From a virus: a DNA stretch of 25,817 bases. Both the position numbers and the translations under genes were made by a program. The notes under the pieces were generated by a model. It had not been told where the DNA came from. It saw nothing but the letters and a program-made list of their open reading frames with translations, and searched no databases. Below, piece by piece: positions 2,333 through 25,817 of the stretch. The first letter of the stretch is position 1. Every line of letters starts with the position of its first letter. The DNA lies in IMG/VR virus record IMGVR_UViG_3300017991_000371, positions 1-25,817 of that record. One strand, written 5' to 3'.

Positions 2333-2969
2333 AGAAGAAAACGCGACTGCCGGTACAAGCGACACTGAACCGGTGAAGACGGATATTACTGAAATAATAG
2401 GCTCTGAATTAATCGAGAAGTCTGACGTCGAGGCAAAGGAATCCGGAAACGATTCTAATTCAAAAACGCCGATGAATGAAAAGGCTATCGTGGAAGCGGA
2501 CTTCGAGTTCGCTGTCGAGGAAGGCGTGGAGATCGACGCTGACTCCTTGGCGGGTCTTAAGAATTTCTCGATAGAACATAATCTATCCAAGGATTCGGCG
2601 CAGGCTCTTCTGGATCATTTGATTTCGGCTAGATCCAAAGCTATGGAAGCTCAGAAGGCCGCCAACGAAAAAGCGATAGCCGAGGCCGTGAAGAAGATTA
2701 AAGCCGACCCTGACATCGGGGGATCCAAGTACGATGAAATTCAATCGGCCGCGGATAGAATCACTCTGAAATACGGTGGCTCCGACTTTCAGAAAGCGGT
2801 CTCGGACGGAGGATTGAAATATGAACCTATGTTTCTTAGGTTTATAAGAAATCTAAATTCGAGTTTAACCGAAGACGAAGTGATCTCCACTTCCCAGACT
2901 AGAAAATCCGGTCCGAAAGAAAAGACCTTCGCGGAATACGCTAAAGAATTCATAAACAACGATACATGA
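2325..2969 (+). CDS. Scaffolding-type protein
   Basis: This gene encodes 214 aa from ATG 2325 (MSEEEN…). An in-frame TTG at 2271 exists, but starting there would bury the gene in its neighbour, and ATG 2325 has GGA-rich sequence upstream and the short overlap typical of this operon. The protein is acidic at the N terminus, with a central Lys/Ala/Glu coiled coil (about residues 95-130) and a basic C terminus. This is the usual build of phage scaffolds that organise coat subunits and then leave or are degraded. It sits immediately upstream of the coat gene. Residues 183-206 are copied almost exactly into the chimeric ORF at 4766-4945. Family recognition rests mostly on position and composition. 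Confidence 0.75.
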   Translation: MSEEENATAGTSDTEPVKTDITEIIGSELIEKSDVEAKESGNDSNSKTPMNEKAIVEADFEFAVEEGVEIDADSLAGLKNFSIEHNLSKDSAQALLDHLISARSKAMEAQKAANEKAIAEAVKKIKADPDIGGSKYDEIQSAADRITLKYGGSDFQKAVSDGGLKYEPMFLRFIRNLNSSLTEDEVISTSQTRKSGPKEKTFAEYAKEFINNDT

Positions 2970-4488: not shown

Positions 4489-4776
4489 ATGAAGAACATC
4501 AAATACCGCAAAGCGACGATTACTTTAAAGAAAAAACATTGGACCGGCTCGCGCCTACTTGAAAAAGGCGCGACCTTCAAGGATGATGAATGTTTCGAGG
4601 GGAAATACCAATTCGATACCGCTAAAGTCGTTTTCGACGACGAATCTCCAAAGCCGAGTCTGGATAAGGATGAAGGAAAAGACGAATCTCCAAAGCCGAG
4701 TCTGGATAAGGATGAAGGAAAAGACGAATCTCCAAAGCCGAACCGACGCAGGAAGGGTGTGAAAAATGAAAAGTAA
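4489..4776 (+). CDS. Hypothetical protein with 14-residue C-terminal repeats
   Basis: This gene encodes 95 aa, with an ACGGAG ribosome-binding site 4 bases before ATG 4489. The N-terminal 50 residues look like a small beta domain (KATITLKKKHWTGSRLLEKG). The remainder is a Lys/Glu/Asp/Pro linker made of two full copies and one partial copy of a 14-residue unit (DESPKPSLDKDEGK), encoded by a 42-bp tandem repeat. It ends in a basic tail (NRRRKGVKNEK). It lies between capsid and tail-tube genes, so a head-completion or decoration role is possible, but I do not recognise the family. Its last 34 bases are part of a 51-bp sequence repeated 183 bases downstream. Confidence 0.7.
   Translation: MKNIKYRKATITLKKKHWTGSRLLEKGATFKDDECFEGKYQFDTAKVVFDDESPKPSLDKDEGKDESPKPSLDKDEGKDESPKPNRRRKGVKNEK
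4639..4740 (+). repeat. 42-bp tandem repeat, 2.4 copies, inside a gene
   Basis: Units occupy 4639-4680 and 4681-4722, and a third 18-bp partial copy covers 4723-4740. The copies appear identical, and 42 is a multiple of three, so the coding frame is preserved and 14 residues are added per unit. The identity at synonymous sites points to recent slippage or unequal recombination. Confidence 0.95.
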
Positions 4777-4793
4777 TTATCCTGAATTCCGCA
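4743..4793 (+). repeat. 51-bp direct repeat, copy 1
   Basis: This sequence recurs exactly at 4926-4976. The first copy holds the end of the repeat-containing gene and the ATG of the chimeric ORF. The offset between copies is 183 bases, a multiple of three. The repeat brackets two segments copied from genes elsewhere in the window. Confidence 0.95.
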
Positions 4794-4945
4794 TTCCTTT
4801 CATTTATAATTCCGAAGATTCATATATCGTCGCTTTGCTTGATGGTGTTTATGAAGACGGAGTGATCTCAACTTCCCAGACTAGAAAATCCGGTCCGAAA
4901 GAAAAGATCTTCGCGGAATACGCTGCCGACGCAGGAAGGGTGTGA
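4766..4945 (+). CDS. 59-aa chimeric ORF built from tail-tube and scaffold gene pieces
   Basis: ATG 4766 opens 59 codons to TGA 4943-4945. After nine residues from the repeat (MKSNYPEFR), 20 residues match residues 73-92 of the tail tubular B protein, and then 24 residues match residues 183-206 of the scaffold with two changes. Both pieces keep their parental reading frame. At DNA level 4794-4852 matches 5830-5888 with one difference, and 4853-4924 matches 2871-2942 with three. A GGAAGG element lies about 10 bases before the ATG. Whether it is expressed is unknown. It may be a recombination scar rather than a functional gene, or an assembly error. Confidence 0.5.
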   Translation: MKSNYPEFRIPFIYNSEDSYIVALLDGVYEDGVISTSQTRKSGPKEKIFAEYAADAGRV

Positions 4946-4976
4946 AAAATGAAAAGTAATTATCCTGAATTCCGCA
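4926..4976 (+). repeat. 51-bp direct repeat, copy 2
   Basis: This is the second, exact copy of 4743-4793. It contains an ATG at 4949 that opens a 14-codon mini-ORF (4949-4993), whose TGA overlaps the tail tubular A start (ATGA). Without the 183-bp insertion the same mini-ORF would begin inside the end of the repeat-containing gene, which is probably the ancestral arrangement. Confidence 0.95.
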
Positions 4977-4993
4977 ATAAGGAAAAAACATGA
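4949..4993 (+). CDS. 14-aa mini-ORF coupled to tail tubular A
   Basis: This short frame encodes MKSNYPEFRNKEKT, and its TGA overlaps the next ATG by 4 bases. It may act as a translational coupler for tail tubular A, or may be chance. No protein function is suggested. The GGAAGG element of the repeat lies upstream of it, as it does for the chimeric ORF. Confidence 0.25.
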   Translation: MKSNYPEFRNKEKT

Positions 4994-5625
4994 CTACAGC
5001 GGAGGATATTTGCAATCTTGCCTTGGGATCGATTGGATTATCTCCGATAAGTTCTCTTTCCCAATCGACTCAAAACGCCAGAACATGCAATCTTTTCTAT
5101 GCTATCGTCAGAGATAGCTATTTGATTGAGCATGATTGGAGTTTTTGTGCCAAGATAATCGAGTTAACGGAAGAAACCACCGAAGTTGAAGGATATGATT
5201 GGGCTCGATATAAATTTTCGTATCCAGTCGATTGTCTTAAGGCTCGAAGAATAACCGACGGGGAATCGAATTATTCCTATCCATTCATTATTCGAGACGT
5301 TGAAATATCACTTGTCGAAACAAAGCTTATCTTCACGGGCATAGAGGAAGCTTTTCTTGAATATACTTTGGCGATGACCGACCCCGATTCGTTCGACCAG
5401 ACTTTTCTCATGGCTTTAAGTAAAAAAATCGCATTCGAGATTTCATGGCCGTTGACCAAAGACGCTAAAATACAGAAACAGGCTTTCGATCAATATTTAA
5501 TAGCGGATAATGCCGCGAAGCAAAAGGATGGCTCGGAACGACTTATAGAACCTTACCCATTGACTTGGGAGGAAGCTAGAACTGGAATTTGGCGGCAGCC
5601 GATTTGGAGACCATGGCCTATATAA
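4990..5625 (+). CDS. Tail tubular protein A (adaptor ring)
   Basis: This 211-aa protein belongs to the T7 gp11-like/tail tubular A family, which forms the adaptor ring joining portal to tail nozzle. The N terminus 'TTAEDICNLALGSIGLSPI' followed by 'ARTCNLFYAIVRDSYLIEHDWSF' is the family hallmark. It continues with 'YKFSYPVDCLKARRI' and a C-terminal helical region with 'MALSKKIAFEIS'. Length matches the family (about 190-220 aa). GGAAAAAA precedes ATG 4990. Its end overlaps the tail tubular B start by 13 bases. Confidence 0.9.
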   Translation: MTTAEDICNLALGSIGLSPISSLSQSTQNARTCNLFYAIVRDSYLIEHDWSFCAKIIELTEETTEVEGYDWARYKFSYPVDCLKARRITDGESNYSYPFIIRDVEISLVETKLIFTGIEEAFLEYTLAMTDPDSFDQTFLMALSKKIAFEISWPLTKDAKIQKQAFDQYLIADNAAKQKDGSERLIEPYPLTWEEARTGIWRQPIWRPWPI

Positions 5626-8558
5626 TTAAGAATTCCTTCCGCGGCGGGATAGTAGACGAAGCTTTATCCGCCAGGATAGATTTAGATAAATACGACCAAA
5701 GCTGTCGGGAAATGAAGAATTTCATTCTTCAGCCTCAAGGCGGGGTCTATCGTCGTCCTGGTCTTCGCTTCATATCGGAAATCGCTTTGGATGGAACTCC
5801 TACCGCTACGAACATCCAGCCTGTTCTTATCCCTTTCATTTATAATTCCGAAGATTCATATATCGTCGCTTTGCTTGATGGTGTTTATAAGATCTACGTT
5901 GATAACGCTTATCTCGATGAAGGCGAAAGCCCTTTTACGGCTTCGCAGGCTTTGACGGCTGATTACGCTCAATCCGCCGATACGCTTTATCTTGTCCAAC
6001 GGGAAGCGGAACCTTTCAAGATACTCAGAATCGCCGTCGATGATTTCAAGGAGACCATTTTAGGATTCGCCGGTAATTATCCGGCTCCTCCTATTCCCGG
6101 GGTTGTATTTTCCGGGACTACCGGTAGCGCGACAATAGAGTATGCCGTAACCGCTAATTCAGATAAGGGACAGGAATCGTTGCCGGTTTTCAAATCGATA
6201 ACGAACGGACAATCTCCTTTGCAATGGTCGGATGGCAGTAAATGCACGCTTTCATGGCCTGAATTCGGATCTGCATTCGACGGTACGACTCCTCTTTCCA
6301 TAACCGTTTATGAAACGGGAACTTTTTTGATTATGGTCGGTAACGCCGGGAAAGCGGCCTATTCCTCGAATGGATATGGATGGGTTCTGAGCGGAGATAC
6401 TCAATTCGGTGGAAGCATCATTTTCGATGTGGCGATAAAGCCTTCTTTGCCGGCTATTATCGTCGGACAAGGCGGGAAAGGTTCTGGAACTATCGATGGT
6501 TCGACATGGATAGCCATTCCGAATATGCAGTTCGGAACAAGCGATATTTACGGAATATCCTACTCTACTTTCAACAATGTATTTATCGCCGTGGGACAAT
6601 ACGGTAAAGCCTCTCGCTCCTATAATAACGGAGCCACTTGGACCGCTTTGACCACTGGGTTGGATCCTCTCAAATCAATTACCAGCGTAACCGCCGCCGT
6701 GCAGTTGATCGATGCGCGTTTCTTGGCCGTTACAGATTACGGATACGCCGCTTATTCGGACGATTACGGTACTACATGGATTCAAAGAGTCATACAAAGC
6801 GGTTTTAAAAGTTGGCGCGTCGAATATTTTCGTGATTTGCATCGATTCTACAGCGTCGGAGAAGGTTATGACCATATCTATTATTCCTCTGACTACGGGG
6901 ATACATGGGTAGCTATGGACAATCCGGCTCTTCTCGATGGGCATGTTATGTTCGGAATAGCGTACTCTTCCGCGCTGGATATAACAGTTGCCGTTGGAGA
7001 TAATGATGCCATAGTGTTTTCCGAAGATGGAGAGTTTTGGAAAAACGCCTCTCAAAAGGAAGGGCAATCGATCACTTATCACGACGTCGTTTGGTCGAAT
7101 GATTTGAGTATATTCATAGCTATAGGGACAGGCGGATATTTGAATATTTCTTCAGACGGCAAATTCTGGTTTGAATCGAAAGAAGCGGATTTCTATAGGA
7201 TATACAAGAAATCTCAAGGTATTTATGGATATATAGGAACGGCAAGAGGAGAACTGACATTTACCGATTATAATTACGATCCCGTAATTACGGAATCAAT
7301 TCCAGAAGCCTATAATCCTTTCGAAAACGAGAATCCTGGAGTCGTCGCTCTTTTCAAGCAAAGACTTTGGTTAGCCAATACCGCTTCCAAATCTCAAACC
7401 GTTTTCGCCAGCCGGGTAAGGGATTTCGAGAACATGAATTTCTCTCCGTTTATCAGACCGAATGACTCAATTGAAAACGTTATCTTTTCAAGTAGACCGG
7501 ATGGCGTTATGTGGCTTGTTCCATTCAATCAGGTTTTGAAGGTCGGCACGGTGGAACGAAGTTGGACTTTATCATCGGCGTCCGGCGGAGCGATTACTCC
7601 GACCGATATCGATATAAAACCTGTTCTTGATTGGGGCGCATCTAAAGTTAAGCCGATACTCTCCGGGAACTCGTTGATTTATGTCGAAAACAAAGGATCG
7701 AAACTTTTCGATATTTATGAAAGACAGGAATATCTAGGAGATACCGGAGATAATCTTTCCGTGAATGCATCGGATCTTTTCGAAGGATACGAGATCGTTT
7801 CTATGGCCTATCAGAGAACTCCCGATCCAATCATCTGGTGCGTAAGAAACGACGGCAAAGCGGTAGCTATGACCTATCTTAAGAATGAAGGTCTTTGGGC
7901 ATGGCATTTTCACGAGACCGATGGTTTGTTCAAAGACGTGATCGTAATTCCGGGAGATCCCTACGATAAGGTTTATTTTATAGTTCGTAGAATGGGCAGA
8001 TATTTTCTAGAGATGCTTGAAGATAAATGGGATGGTCAGGATATGTTGGCGGCTAAGTTTCTGGACAGCATGATTTCTAAAATAGATCCCATACCATTTA
8101 TGGTCGTCGATGGTCTCTCCCATTTGGAAGGGCAAACGGTCTATGCTTTCGCAGATACCGAAGTTGAAGGACCGTTCACGGTTTCCGGAGGAGAAATAAC
8201 GCTTCCGTCTCCTGTGAATACCGCTCATGTAGGATTGCCTTATACATCTGTTTTATCTCCTTTGAGTGTGGAGTTCGCGACTCAATTCAGGGGAATCAGC
8301 ATTGGAAGAATCAAGGGTATCGGTGAAATAAAGCTTCGTTTGAAAAGTTCCCGCGGCGGTAAAATAGGTCCTCGCATGGATTATTTAGATGATATCGAAA
8401 TGCCTGATTTTTTAATCCAATTCGGTTTTACCGGCGACGTTTCCATAACTCCGCCGAATTCATATGATAGCGATGCTTCTTTCTTCATCGTCCAAGACGA
8501 ACCTTTACCAATGACGATTCAAGCCATGTTCATAAACCTTAATATGGCGGATAGATAA
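5613..8558 (+). CDS. Tail tubular protein B (nozzle) with inserted Asp-box propeller
   Basis: This gene encodes 981 aa from ATG 5613, preceded by TTGGAGACC. A TTG at 5589 in the same frame is less likely because it has no spaced ribosome-binding site. The N-terminal part (MAYIIKNSFRGGIVDEALSA, 'CREMKNFILQPQGGVYRRPG') and the part after residue 570 ('ALFKQRLWLANT', 'FASRVRDFENM') are typical of T7 gp12-like nozzle proteins. Between about residues 230 and 555 lie seven Asp-box-like repeats ending in G-x-x-W or G-x-W, for example SDDYGTTW, SSDYGDTW, SEDGEFW and SSDGKFW. This is consistent with a seven-bladed propeller, often used for binding glycans. Removing it leaves about 655 aa, near the size of compact nozzle proteins. 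Residues 73-92 are copied at 4794-4852. The stop overlaps the next ATG (TAATG). Confidence 0.9.
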   Translation: MAYIIKNSFRGGIVDEALSARIDLDKYDQSCREMKNFILQPQGGVYRRPGLRFISEIALDGTPTATNIQPVLIPFIYNSEDSYIVALLDGVYKIYVDNAYLDEGESPFTASQALTADYAQSADTLYLVQREAEPFKILRIAVDDFKETILGFAGNYPAPPIPGVVFSGTTGSATIEYAVTANSDKGQESLPVFKSITNGQSPLQWSDGSKCTLSWPEFGSAFDGTTPLSITVYETGTFLIMVGNAGKAAYSSNGYGWVLSGDTQFGGSIIFDVAIKPSLPAIIVGQGGKGSGTIDGSTWIAIPNMQFGTSDIYGISYSTFNNVFIAVGQYGKASRSYNNGATWTALTTGLDPLKSITSVTAAVQLIDARFLAVTDYGYAAYSDDYGTTWIQRVIQSGFKSWRVEYFRDLHRFYSVGEGYDHIYYSSDYGDTWVAMDNPALLDGHVMFGIAYSSALDITVAVGDNDAIVFSEDGEFWKNASQKEGQSITYHDVVWSNDLSIFIAIGTGGYLNISSDGKFWFESKEADFYRIYKKSQGIYGYIGTARGELTFTDYNYDPVITESIPEAYNPFENENPGVVALFKQRLWLANTASKSQTVFASRVRDFENMNFSPFIRPNDSIENVIFSSRPDGVMWLVPFNQVLKVGTVERSWTLSSASGGAITPTDIDIKPVLDWGASKVKPILSGNSLIYVENKGSKLFDIYERQEYLGDTGDNLSVNASDLFEGYEIVSMAYQRTPDPIIWCVRNDGKAVAMTYLKNEGLWAWHFHETDGLFKDVIVIPGDPYDKVYFIVRRMGRYFLEMLEDKWDGQDMLAAKFLDSMISKIDPIPFMVVDGLSHLEGQTVYAFADTEVEGPFTVSGGEITLPSPVNTAHVGLPYTSVLSPLSVEFATQFRGISIGRIKGIGEIKLRLKSSRGGKIGPRMDYLDDIEMPDFLIQFGFTGDVSITPPNSYDSDASFFIVQDEPLPMTIQAMFINLNMADR

Positions 8559-10836: not shown

Positions 10837-13800
10837 CGCGGAATTCGAACTTGAAAACGGCGGCGCCGAAACAATTGGTTTCATTCCAGAGCCTAAGGAA
10901 TTATTCAGCGTCGAACGAGACGAAGCCGCTTTAAACATCAATGCTTCATTCAATAGAGATCCGGAACAGGAAGCGGAGATATTGGAGCTTTCTAAAAAAC
11001 TAGATTGGCCTGTCGATGTCGTTCGAGCTAAAAAGAAAGAAGCTTTGGAGGAGGTTCGCAAAAGTGACTTTCGATCTATAAACGAATCTATTCTTTTAGG
11101 TTTTATCGGGCGGTCTTCTGAAAACGCCGCTTTGGTCAAAGATGATATTATTCCGCTCAGAAACACCGCAGGCTTTTTAGATCGAATCGAAAAATACTCC
11201 TCCGATTTAATCAGCGATATTGAAAAAGCCTATCAATCTGGCGATATTAATCTTCAATTAGCTCCTCTTTATAATCGCAAATTCATTCAGCAGGAAACCG
11301 ACCCGGAACTTGACGAGGAAATAAAAAGACTTGAATCCGCTATTCTTCCTAGAGAAGAAGAACCGGATTTGTTGAAGGAAATCGCGACGGTTACAGCTGA
11401 GCAAATCCCTTTGGTTCTTTCCGCGGTCGGAAGCGGAGTCGCAAGAGTTCAGGAAGCCATTCCCGCGATAGGTGGAGCGACCATTGCGGCCGGCGTGGCG
11501 ACCGGCGGGACAGGAGCGATTCCATTCGCTATCGGCAGCGCGAAAGCTATTTTCGCTTTGGGCGTCATGGAGAAGATAGCCGGAATTGAAACTCCGATGG
11601 CCGCCAAGGAATTTTCCGAGTTCCGAGACGAAAACGGAGAGCCGCTCGACCCGGATGTATTGAAATACGCCGCTTTAACCGTCGGCTACTTGAACGGCAT
11701 AACGGAGCTAGTAACGGATGTCGCGACCATAGGATTGTTGAAGCGAACTCCTGGTTTCAAAAAGATTTTTTCTCTGGCTCCAAGGGAAGCGGTAAAGGAA
11801 GGTTTGCAGAGCAAGGTTTTCAGAACCGCTTTAAAAAGAATCGCCATATCAATTACCGGTTCGTCTCTCATCAATGGATTGGAGGAAGCTGTTCAGGAGC
11901 TGACCACGATTTTGGGCGGGGAGGCCGCGAAGAAAATATCTCCTGGAGAATTCGAAGATATCGATACTAATAAAGCGATCAAAAGAGTTCTTGAAGCGGG
12001 AAGACTTGGTTCTTTGGGGGGCTTAGGCTTCGGATTGATGACCGGTTCCGTTAGTCTTGGGACAGCGGCGGTTCAGAAAGGAGTTTTAATTAATCAGGCT
12101 CGGAATATTAAAAAACGCGCAAGTAGTTATTATGACGAGCAGGTTGAATTATCCGAAAAGCTTGATGAAACTAAAACCAAAAAACGTTCTTCCGACAAAA
12201 CTAAGGAATTTCTGGAAAACGGAGGATTGACCAAAGACGGCTTTATAGATGGAGATCAAGCTCTTGAATTCTATCAAACCGGCGATAACTCGGAAATATT
12301 CGCTAAACTTGGGATAACCGAGGAGGAAATTAAAAAAGCGGCTTTAAACGGAAAATCGATACCAATAAAGCTTTCGGAAATACAATCAGTTCTTTCCTTG
12401 GAGGAAAGTAGAAAATTCTTCAAAACAATTCGAGAATCCGCGGATAGTTTATCCCTTGATGAAACGGATACGATAGATATTCAAGAAGAATTGAAGAGAA
12501 TAGACGAAGCTTTAAAAACGATTGAAAAGGATCGAGATGAATTTTTAGTGGAGAAGTCCAGAATCGAAACGGAAGCCGAAAGCGTAGCCAGGATCAGGAA
12601 AATACCGCAATCGAAGATTTACGCGAAGGGCATAGCGGAGATTCTTGGGAATTTTTCCTTAAGAATGTCTATAGAAGGAGATCAATCTCCCGCCGCCACT
12701 CTTAAAAGAATACGAACGGAGGTTTCGACTTTCAAGGATTTAGCCGACGCGGAAAAATTCCTGAAGGAAAATGGATTGAAAAACTCGATTCCATTAGGCG
12801 TGACTCGAATCGTTTCGGAAGGTTTCATTATAAAGCTTTTCGAGGGGGCTAATCATTCCACGTTGATTCATGAAACAGGACATGTATTCTTGGGAGAGAT
12901 TGAATCAATCGTCTCTAATGGACATGCTTCCGAAAATTTGATCAATGATTACGATCTGATTAAAAAATGGCTTGGAGTTGTTCCGGAACAGGAAATAACC
13001 ATCGAGCAACAAGATAGATTCGCGCAAGCTTTCGAACTTTATGTACGGGAAGGGAAAGCCCCGAATAAGAATTTGATTCCGTTTTTCGAGCGATTTAAAA
13101 AATGGTTGACGACCATTTATAAAAAAATAAAGGGATCTGCGATAGATGTAGGATTGACTGACGAAGTACGTCTAGTTTTCGACCGTCTTCTTATGGTCGA
13201 AGAGCAAACCGAACGATTCGTTGAAGAAAATGAATTATTCATTTCGGATGCCGTTTTAGATTCCTTGAATTTGAAAGACGCGCAAAAACTTGAATTCCGT
13301 CGAAGATTATCCGGAGCGTCGAAAATAGCCAATCAGTCCATTCAATTGGATTTAGCGCGCGATTATAAAGCCAATATCAAGAAATGGACAGCCGAAGCGA
13401 AAATAAAGGTCGCTGGTAAAAGAGTGAACAATCTTTATGCTGACCTTGTTTCATCCAAACGAGGTTTCAATCTTGCCGCATCCTCTGAATTTCTGAGCGC
13501 GAAAGAATTGAATGAATTAGAGCTGAAGAAACCGGATACCTTTAGCGATGACGGGATAGACCCAAAAATAATAGCGGAAAGATTCGGTTATGCATCAGTT
13601 AAAGCGATGTTTACCGATTTGAGAACTCAGCCCTCTTTGAAAAGCGAAATCGAGAGAATCGATTCTCTTAGATATTTTCTTGATCATCCCGTTATGGGTC
13701 TTAACGAATCCGAGATCGAGTTTCAATTCGGAAAGCAAGTCGCCATTAGACTCAAAGCGAAGAATTCGCGTCTAGTGCGGAAAAATGGTCAGAACCCTTC

Positions 13801-20587: not shown

Positions 20588-21769
20588 TTATCTCCTAAAT
20601 AAATCAAGGATTATTCGCGCCTTCTCGCCGCTGTCGTCTTTCAGCGCATCCTTTACCATTTTATCCGTCAACGTCCCGGCCGCGGCCAGCGGCCCATAAA
20701 TTCGCGCCCATTCCTCGCTTTCGTATATTTCCTTCAGCTCCTCGATCGATTCGACGAGTTCAGGATGGATAGCGGCTTCAATCTGGTCGGCGATCTGCTT
20801 CGCGTTTTCAGCGCTGTTATGCTGAATAGCCGAGTTTATCTCGTGTCCATCGAATTCGCCGGTTTTAATCAGCGCGTCTATGTATTGTTGCTTGGATCGA
20901 TCTTCGGTCAACTCCTTAAGCCTTATGACGTCTGGATGAAGCTTGACGTCCTCCTTTTTCGGTTCTCCCTCCTGCCTGCGAGGCGGAGCTTTGGATGCGT
21001 CGTCAAACCAATCCTCCGGCTTCGACATCTCGTCTTTTAGCGATTTGTAGATTTTGCCTAGATTGACGATGTCGATTTCAAGGCAGGCATCCACCTTGTG
21101 TCCGAGGCGTTTTTCAAGCTTCTCCTGGCTGACCCCCACTTCGCCGAATAGCTTAACCATATCCTTAACTCGATCGATCAAAGGCTTGTCGCTGCGGCCC
21201 GCGAGGGTCTTGTTGCATTGCTCAACTGCTTCCTCAATGACGTCTCCCGGAATAATCGCCAAAATGCAGGCTCTGAGCCGTCTGGCGGCTTTGTTAAGGA
21301 TCATCTCATCTATATCGCGAGGATCGGTCAATTTCGTATTGCCTTTTGCTCTAGAATATCTGATATGAGGTACTGAGAAAGTCGTTTGTCGCCTGGTATT
21401 CGTTTGAAAATCGATACAAAACGCCATGACTAAACTTTCTCCCGGCTTGCCATTTCTCTCCGGCTTTCTTTCCAGTTCGGTCACTCCGAAATCTATATTT
21501 CCCCAATTCTGAGCTATCGATTCAGCTAGTCTGATGCTTGGCCCTTCCACTTTCGTTCCGCCGCGCGGATAGCTATATATAGCCGCTTCAGCCAATCGCC
21601 GCCGCTTGCAGGCTTCAATTATATCGTTTCTAGCCTGAATCTGATTCCTTGGGAATTGTTTAGCCATAATCGTTTGAGCCTGCACCAGGGCCATAGCTCG
21701 ATTGCTCTCGACATTTCCGGCGAAAGCGAGACTCGGGGCGGTTCCCGCAGTCGTTTGAATTTCGTTCAT
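20588..21769 (-). CDS. Probable phage single-strand annealing protein
   Basis: This 393-aa protein has a strong AAGGAG site 6 bases before ATG. The N-terminal 200 residues carry the pattern of a phage recombination-protein family often linked to exonucleases: 'AMALVQAQTIMAKQFPRNQ', 'KRRRLAEAAIYSYPRGGTKV', 'SIRLAESIAQNWGNIDFG', 'DIDEMILNKAARRLRACILAIIPGDVIEEAVEQC'. The rest contains an acidic, variable linker and a helical C terminus (SIEELKEIYESEEWARI). Family members would bind ssDNA and anneal complementary strands. A PD-(D/E)XK exonuclease is encoded in the same block (24228-25226), supporting an exo/annealase pair. Confidence is moderate because no invariant catalytic residues exist to check. 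Confidence 0.55.
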   Translation of the reverse strand: MNEIQTTAGTAPSLAFAGNVESNRAMALVQAQTIMAKQFPRNQIQARNDIIEACKRRRLAEAAIYSYPRGGTKVEGPSIRLAESIAQNWGNIDFGVTELERKPERNGKPGESLVMAFCIDFQTNTRRQTTFSVPHIRYSRAKGNTKLTDPRDIDEMILNKAARRLRACILAIIPGDVIEEAVEQCNKTLAGRSDKPLIDRVKDMVKLFGEVGVSQEKLEKRLGHKVDACLEIDIVNLGKIYKSLKDEMSKPEDWFDDASKAPPRRQEGEPKKEDVKLHPDVIRLKELTEDRSKQQYIDALIKTGEFDGHEINSAIQHNSAENAKQIADQIEAAIHPELVESIEELKEIYESEEWARIYGPLAAAGTLTDKMVKDALKDDSGEKARIILDLFRR

Positions 21770-22922: not shown

Positions 22923-23145
22923 CTTCCTCCTCCTCCTTCGCTTTCTTGATCCGCTCTTCCTGTACTTCAGGGTTCAGAGTGTTAGCGCCGCAATCTCCTT
23001 CGCCTTTGAATCCGTCGAATCTGCAATGAAACCCGCAAATGAGACCTTTTTCCTTGGCGTAGCCTCGTTCGAGAGATCCTTCGATGTAATAGGGGCAACC
23101 GTCGCAAATGCCGCCTATCGGCCATATCATTGTTTTATTTATCAT
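22915..23145 (-). CDS. Cysteine-rich probable metal-binding protein
   Basis: This 76-aa protein has cysteines at 14, 17, 37, 41 and 52 (C-D-G-C, C-G-F-H-C, D-C-G), a likely zinc or iron-sulfur binding arrangement, and an acidic-basic C-terminal tail (EERIKKAKEEEEDE). GAGGA precedes ATG with 6-base spacing. The ATG overlaps the stop of the methyltransferase C-terminal frame (ATGA), and its end overlaps the zincin-like gene by 8 bases. Function is unknown. Confidence 0.65.
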   Translation of the reverse strand: MINKTMIWPIGGICDGCPYYIEGSLERGYAKEKGLICGFHCRFDGFKGEGDCGANTLNPEVQEERIKKAKEEEEDE

Positions 23146-23681
23146 AAATAGTCCTCTAAAGATTGTTGAATATATTGTGGTTTTTTAATTTTCTTCAAAA
23201 GTACGCGAAAAGCTTTCTCCGCGGTCTGCGGAACGACGCCGTTTCCCAGAAGTCTCAGTCGGTCAATTCGATTCTCTCCCGGCTTGGCTCCTGAAAGTTG
23301 CGTCCATCCAACCGGGAGTCCCATAAGCTGTTCCACCCAATCAGGGTTAAGACGTTTTCCTTTCAACTCATCGGGAACTTTCCCGCATGTGTCGGGTGAG
23401 GAGATCTTTTGACCCCTCGGCGTAGGCCAGTTTTTGGAACCGACCTTCTCCGGCAAATTCATTATGTCCGGCCGTTTGATTCTCGAGGAGGAAACAACGC
23501 AATTAGGATTTTTATCATCAGATGCACGGGGACTAGGCCAATTAGATAATTCTCTGCTCTTCCCACTCGAATTGCTCTTGGCCCGGTCTTGCCGGCCAAC
23601 GGTCGTCTGCAAATCCATTCCGCCTTTTCCATGCATTCCCGGACCGTTGCAATTCTGAGCTTTCGGCGTCGGCCATGCCAA
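23142..23681 (-). CDS. C5 methyltransferase, C-terminal part in the second frame
   Basis: This frame (open back to ATG 24182, family-like from about 23681) encodes the rest of a cytosine-C5 methyltransferase. It has repeated 'NWPTP'/'NWPSP' segments typical of the variable recognition region in phage enzymes, then 'LNPDWVEQLMGLPVGWT', then 'DRLRLLGNGVVPQTAEKAF', the conserved motifs IX-X that close the catalytic domain. It ends at TGA overlapping the next ATG. It joins the N-terminal part only by a +1 shift (or one-base deletion), which could happen anywhere between about 23681 and 23545. It may instead be translated from an internal start. The N-terminal frame lacks these motifs. Confidence 0.8.
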   Translation of the reverse strand: MAWPTPKAQNCNGPGMHGKGGMDLQTTVGRQDRAKSNSSGKSRELSNWPSPRASDDKNPNCVVSSSRIKRPDIMNLPEKVGSKNWPTPRGQKISSPDTCGKVPDELKGKRLNPDWVEQLMGLPVGWTQLSGAKPGENRIDRLRLLGNGVVPQTAEKAFRVLLKKIKKPQYIQQSLEDYL

Positions 23682-24180
23682 GTATGAACAGCCGCTTTCT
23701 CTTATGAGGAGCGCCGACCTCAGCCGCCGAGAATAATCCAGCCTCAACCCTGAAACCCATTGTCTCCAAATCATCGAGGACTTCGGATGCGCCGAGGCTG
23801 ACATGTCCCTCCACATTCTCGAAAAATACCCCTTTTGGTTCGACTTCCTCGATGATTCGCTTGATATGCGGCCATAAATGCCGTTCATCCTCCTTTCCTT
23901 TTCGTTTCCCGACTTGACTGAACGGCTGACAGGGATATCCGGCAGTGATGAAGTCCACCTTTCCATGAAAGTCCTTTCCTTGCAAGGTTTTAAGATTAGT
24001 CCATATCGGAGCGGCGTCGATTTGTCCCGTCTCCATAAGATCGACCAATACTTGGCAGACGTAAAATTCGATCTCAGAGTAAAGGATGATTCGCAGATTT
24101 GGGATAACTCTTTTGATCCCGATGCCAAGCCCTTCATATCCGCTGCATAGGCTGATGCAAGTGATTTCGGTATTATCCAC
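23542..24180 (-). CDS. Cytosine-C5 DNA methyltransferase, N-terminal part
   Basis: This 212-aa frame from GTG 24180 has motif I (SLCSGYEGLG, residues 10-19), motif IV with the catalytic cysteine (PCQPFS, Cys84), motif VI (ENVEG, 121-125) and motif VIII (EVGAPHKRKR). It continues 'ADAESSELQRSG…DDRWPARPGQEQFEWEE', also usual for the family, then stops at TAA 23542-23544 before motifs IX-X. Those are found in the +1 frame downstream. A 15-codon frame (24184-24231) overlaps the exonuclease stop and ends just before the GTG, perhaps coupling translation. The enzyme would methylate phage DNA against host restriction. Either the gene is broken, or it is expressed by frameshifting or as two chains. 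Confidence 0.9.
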   Translation of the reverse strand: MDNTEITCISLCSGYEGLGIGIKRVIPNLRIILYSEIEFYVCQVLVDLMETGQIDAAPIWTNLKTLQGKDFHGKVDFITAGYPCQPFSQVGKRKGKEDERHLWPHIKRIIEEVEPKGVFFENVEGHVSLGASEVLDDLETMGFRVEAGLFSAAEVGAPHKRKRLFILGMADAESSELQRSGNAWKRRNGFADDRWPARPGQEQFEWEEQRII

Positions 24181-24183
24181 ATT

Positions 24184-25763: not shown

Positions 25764-25775
25764 AAATTTCTTCAT

Positions 25776-25817
25776 AAAAAATTAAATAAAAAATTAAATA
25801 AAAAATTAAATAAAAAA
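25776..25817. repeat. 12-bp AT-only tandem repeat at the window end
   Basis: Unit AAAAAATTAAAT is present three times followed by six A residues, reaching the last base. It contains no G or C. It may be an unwinding element, an upstream promoter (UP-type) A-tract region, or simply the repeat at which the sequence assembly stopped. Confidence 0.9.

Follow-up and report, generated by a model that had tools for sequence, protein, structure and literature searches.

The window analysed here, a stretch of 25,817 bp, is a complete IMG/VR virus record and represents a partial genome. Its + strand carries a block of genes for a portal protein (PF12236), a gp5-like protein, a protease/scaffold protein (phrog_458), a GP7 MCP (PF20911), a Bbp16 cement protein (PF21190), a gp9-like protein, a tail tubular protein A-like protein (TTP-A; phrog_394) and a gp12-like tail protein (phrog_376). 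The order of these genes is shared with Escherichia phage phiV10, Enterobacter phage Tyrion and Salmonella phage epsilon15. The finding of PF12236, PF20911, PF21190, phrog_394 and phrog_376, arranged in this order, places the virus with the epsilon15/phiV10/BPP-1-like podoviruses, and its portal and capsid proteins have 35-40% identity to those of phiV10/Tyrion/epsilon15-type phages.

Other parts of the window have features of their own. The gp12-like tail protein (5589-8558) exceeds that of the relatives in length, and around residues 340-525 it gives weak matches to the F510_1955 glycosylhydrolase and Ycf48 families. On the - strand, a DNA C5-methyltransferase at 23142-24182 is spread over two frames, with its N-terminal half starting from GTG 24180 (PF00145) and its C-terminal half in the frame of a 346-codon ORF. 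This second frame is open throughout, and a frameshifted gene, a sequencing error and a programmed shift are candidate causes. Also on the - strand, 20588-21769 encodes a protein of phrog_3657 (unknown function) with at most 55% identity to hypothetical proteins of phages (Caldibacillus, Blautia and others). At 25774-25817 the contig closes with an array of 12-bp tandem units (ATAAAAAATTAA x 3.7), possibly the point where the assembly stopped.

The subject of this study is a mosaic insertion located in the slot between the gp9-like gene and the TTP-A gene (Table 1).

Table 1. Features of the mosaic insertion, its donor stretches and its neighbouring genes (positions in the window).
Feature	Position	Strand	Remarks
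gp9-like gene, upstream neighbour	4489..4776	+	95 aa
51-bp repeat, copy 1	4743..4793	+	last codons and stop of the gp9-like gene, SD-like AGGAAGG, ATG 4766, codons 1-9 of the chimeric ORF
Chimeric 59-codon ORF	4766..4945	+	starts within the gp9-like gene (11-bp overlap), stops 3 bp before ATG 4949
59-bp piece	4794..4852	+	source, gp12-like tail gene 5830-5888; one difference; native frame (IPFIYNSEDSYIVALLDGVY)
72-bp piece	4853..4924	+	source, 3' part of the protease/scaffold gene 2871-2942; three differences; native frame (EDGVISTSQTRKSGPKEKIFAEYA)
Single base G4925	4925	+	outside donor and 51-bp repeat; added base or gp9-end base
51-bp repeat, copy 2	4926..4976	+	restores SD-like sequence and ATG 4949 of a 14-codon ORF, MKSNYPEFRNKEKT
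TTP-A gene, phrog_394, downstream neighbour	4990..5625	+	intact
Protease/scaffold donor stretch	2871..2942	+	near the C-terminus, SEDxxVTG region; gene runs to 2969
gp12-like tail donor stretch	5830..5888	+	conserved N-terminal motif (RLIPFxFSTEQTYILEF in relatives); gene from ATG 5613 to 8558

The sequence and repeat search, with self-BLAST of the whole window, detected three dispersed repeats with E values from 6e-20 to 5e-27, far above chance, and the best remaining dispersed direct repeat was below significance (E 0.046). The two copies of the 51-bp direct repeat are 100% identical (E 5.6e-20), and their spacing is 183 bp. Self-BLAST aligned 4793-4857 with 5829-5892 of the tail gene at 97% identity with one gap (E 8.9e-24), the ungapped block being the 59-bp piece, and the 72-bp piece with its source in the protease/scaffold gene at 95.8% identity (E 4.9e-27). 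Of the 131 copied bases, 4 depart from the donor sequence, and no indel is present. The changes are 4795 T/5831 C, 4860 G/2878 A, 4870 A/2888 C and 4908 T/2926 C (copy/donor), half of them silent. Just upstream of the 51-bp repeat ends an exact tandem repeat of 42 bp x 2.5 (4639-4741, + strand), which lies in the gp9-like gene and codes for DESPKPSLDKDEGK units.

A sequence-only reading of this DNA had described the exact 51-bp repeat, the two donor pieces with one and three differences, the 183-bp total, the in-frame donor pieces, the 59-codon ORF and the intact neighbouring genes. The repeat search and self-BLAST bore out the repeat base for base and both donor pieces, and the remaining claims held as well. 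That reading correctly started the element at 4743 but extended it to 4989, whereas the repeat ends at 4976. Its piece lengths stand, but an unmatched G4925 sits between the 72-bp piece and copy 2. Its 'scaffold' donor is the gene of the phrog_458 protease family, and its 'tail-tube' donor is the gp12-like tail protein, TTP-A being the downstream neighbour. The 42-bp tandem repeat upstream does not figure in that reading. Comparison with relatives shows that both donor stretches are within alignable homologous parts of conserved proteins. Since the donors occupy conserved places of conserved genes, the mosaic was made from the donors and not the reverse.

The 51-bp repeat carries AGGAAGG ∼9 nt upstream of an ATG, followed by nine codons. 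With an SD-like sequence, a start codon and nine codons supplied in this way, the 59-codon ORF could be translated. As a result of the 183-bp length, the chimera stops just short of the next ATG, from which copy 2 opens the 14-codon ORF; the stop of the latter overlaps the TTP-A start, which has its own AAGGA. That the chimera is a newborn gene under selection, whose peptide (part of the protease/scaffold C-terminus and a tail piece) would act in virion assembly or against other phages, is suggested by the native frame of both pieces, by the translation start in the repeat and by the two silent changes among four. To put a number on the frame, we drew 59- and 72-bp pieces at random 50,000 times from the + strand genes of the window and placed them at the insertion site. 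Both pieces kept their native frame in 11% of the draws, and the ORF was open throughout in 22%. Because in-frame joining is expected by chance at this rate, the frame is no evidence of selection. Moreover, no homologue of the 59-codon ORF was found in the collections searched, and it matched no family. A gene-birth event, one of the origins put forward in the sequence-only reading, is possible, but we regard a newborn gene under selection as highly improbable.

As the evidence for the insertion is one metagenomic contig, an artefact has to be weighed: an amplification or library chimera, wrongly assembled strain variants, or the collapse of an array in which the 183-bp unit was tandemly repeated. 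A second copy of the mosaic was absent from all collections searched, and the same contig has the apparently frameshifted DNA methylase. Random ligation, however, would not yield two outer arms that come from one locus and overlap exactly by 51 bp, and the inner pieces carry the base changes described above without indels. An assembler with k above 51 would need reads bearing the junctions. The exact overlap of arms from a single locus, together with inner copies that differ from their donors, makes a simple artefact unlikely, and we agree with the earlier argument that the donor differences speak against a simple misassembly. A longer array of the 183-bp unit may still have been collapsed.

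The copied pieces have diverged from their donors (4/131), while the repeat copies have not diverged from each other (0/51). At 3% divergence, 1.6 differences would be expected in 51 bp and zero would occur in ∼20% of cases. The pieces and the repeat are compatible with a single age.

An exact direct repeat surrounds an insert that can be traced to templates elsewhere, as in templated insertions with a flanking duplication, the scars of staggered-break repair. When each of the three joints was written against both of its parents, the microhomology was 1, 0 and 0-1 bp. Random joins in the window share 1 bp or more in 44% of draws and 2 bp or more in 17%. Joints sharing 0-1 bp resemble end joining or homology-free switching rather than annealing at short homologies. 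Microhomology-mediated recombination or MMBIR, which needs ∼2 bp or more at the junctions, was rejected on these values. Annealing-protein (SSAP) recombination, proposed earlier on the basis of short homologies, requires homology common to the partners at the joints and is poorly supported by the joints seen here; no labelled match to an annealing recombinase was found among the window proteins searched in this partial genome. A transposable element, which would be expected to bring terminal inverted repeats or a transposase and to leave a short target duplication, was rejected because the insert is made up of two pieces of phage genes and the 51-bp repeat. A diversity-generating retroelement was likewise rejected, with 1 of 4 differences at a donor adenine and no reverse transcriptase match among the scanned window proteins.

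Template switching, another origin named in the sequence-only reading, predicts the identical anatomy. A polymerase would leave the locus after 4793, copy 59 nt from the tail gene, move on to copy 72 nt from the protease gene, and return 51 bp upstream of its exit. The shared orientation of all pieces is what switching along a single strand would give, and the donors lie at a distance of no more than ∼2 kb. But this course requires three switches at 0-1 bp homology, and DNA folding found no hairpins at the breakpoints that beat shuffled sequences. We consider template switching possible, though rather doubtful.

We argue instead, with a confidence that stands about halfway, for a complex insertion in an epsilon15-like podovirus that arose when DNA was joined illegitimately and independently of homology, through a staggered break, fill-in and fragment capture. 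In the slot before TTP-A, a break or a stalled fork would have left staggered ends ∼51 nt apart, and filling in both ends would have produced the 51-bp direct repeat. The 59- and 72-bp late-gene fragments, from the phage itself or from a co-infecting close relative, could then have been joined between the filled ends, with the 59-aa chimeric peptide as a possible by-product. Consistent with such joining, the three highly significant matches all fall in one 183-bp unit. A staggered break with fill-in and capture of two fragments is the simplest single event, and three template switches would lead to the same outcome. To our knowledge, a stagger of 51 nt is long relative to known nucleases, and no end-joining protein was identified in the partial genome. 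What is seen directly is the anatomy, the near lack of homology at the joints, the intact neighbours and the variation of the slot among relatives, whereas we infer the staggered break with fill-in, the order of events, the derived state of the insertion and its lack of function. Most likely, the mosaic is a real scar of repair or replication in a tolerant slot between virion genes, and this scar is probably functionless.

That the slot is tolerant is suggested by the relatives. It is filled by gp10 in phiV10, Tyrion and epsilon15, holds an HNH nuclease gene in Vibrio phage 1.185 and is empty in Pseudomonas phage HU1; across the fetched loci, the gap between gp9 and TTP-A ranges from a few tens of bp up to a whole gene. 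The insertion would be tolerated because the slot takes extra DNA and because the two 51-bp copies keep the gp9 end, the ribosome-binding site with its start codon and the TTP-A start. The window and 112 related loci made up our comparison set, with 113 non-redundant sources and 1.29 Mb in all. At a length of at least 40 bp and an identity of at least 90%, dispersed direct repeats occurred only in the window, in locus L102 and in a tandem array of L133.

For repeats of at least 25 bp, we counted the 67 sources having both flanking genes (the window and 66 loci), taking the slot from the cement gene to TTP-A. Besides the window, slot repeats were present in L009 (Tyrion), in L151/L156, counted as one inherited event, and in L076. 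All of them lie within gp9 and in frame, with spacings of 75, 201 and 204 bp, respectively, each a multiple of three. For short in-frame copies of at least 25 bp, the 66 loci gave 3 events in ∼34 kb of slot versus ∼7 in ∼790 kb elsewhere, an excess of about tenfold by count that is exploratory, was seen post hoc and rests on three events. It is conceivable, but very unlikely in our estimate, that the gp9/gp10 slot serves epsilon15-like phages as a nursery, capturing ectopically copied, in-frame scraps of late genes beside a duplicated translation start, and that the 59-aa ORF is a chimeric gene just born there.

In L156, the C-terminal segment AKEIAEKRK of gp9 is repeated mid-gene by an exact, in-frame copy of 30 bp (13296-13325 and 13497-13526). 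The gp9 gene of L076 contains an exact in-frame duplication of 37 bp (7623-7659 and 7827-7863; STNTGSQGGGA), its copies 204 bp apart. L077 has hairpin-like repeats among the capsid, cement, gp9 and following genes (6906-6940, 7411-7453 and 7847-7890), two of which match the third inversely; they are possibly a mobile intergenic element.

No close relative with or without the 183-bp unit was found among phages, viral contigs and bacterial and archaeal genomes, collections that may have left out near records; the best match among viral contigs had ∼40% protein identity. If the insertion is real, it is a clean, young case of a phage building new sequence from its own late-gene scraps without homology, at a site where related phages repeatedly have extra or duplicated sequence. 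It would also put to the test, in a concrete case, how small orphan ORFs come about between essential virion genes. An artefact, on the other hand, would be a caution against counting such ORFs in viral metagenomes.

The literature on template switching, gene birth, partial gene duplication and templated insertion in bacterial genomes yielded no direct precedent in phages. Several known systems come close. Template switching of the MMBIR/FoSTeS type also joins short nearby pieces serially, but its microhomology-driven form should leave microhomology at the joints, and those of the window have 0-1 bp. Phage genomes are known for mosaic joints made by Rad52-like and Red recombinases; in PMC2327257 and PMC3945230, these recombinases act on diverged but extended homologous sequences, whereas the joints of the window are without homology. 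In the Uetakevirus phages epsilon15 and phiV10, the likeness is the gene order around the site in the gp9-gp10-gp11 region, but their slot holds gp10 and that of the window holds the mosaic ORF and the 14-codon ORF. In E. coli topA mutants, tandem duplications arise de novo and independently of existing repeats, and the authors count adjacent single-strand breaks among the possible sources (PMC6954433); the duplications in the galK assay measure 2-19 bp, compared with 51 bp in the window. Similarly, in the paired-nick duplications of plants (Schiml et al. 2016, as cited in PMC6954433), which belong with tandem duplications carrying filler DNA at staggered breaks, the sequence between two breaks is duplicated directly, independently of repeats and with low-homology junctions. 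The window differs from the plant case, as cited there, in being from a phage, in having two ectopic coding fragments between the copies and in that its breaks are deduced from the product. The instance is new, while the type of rearrangement is already known.
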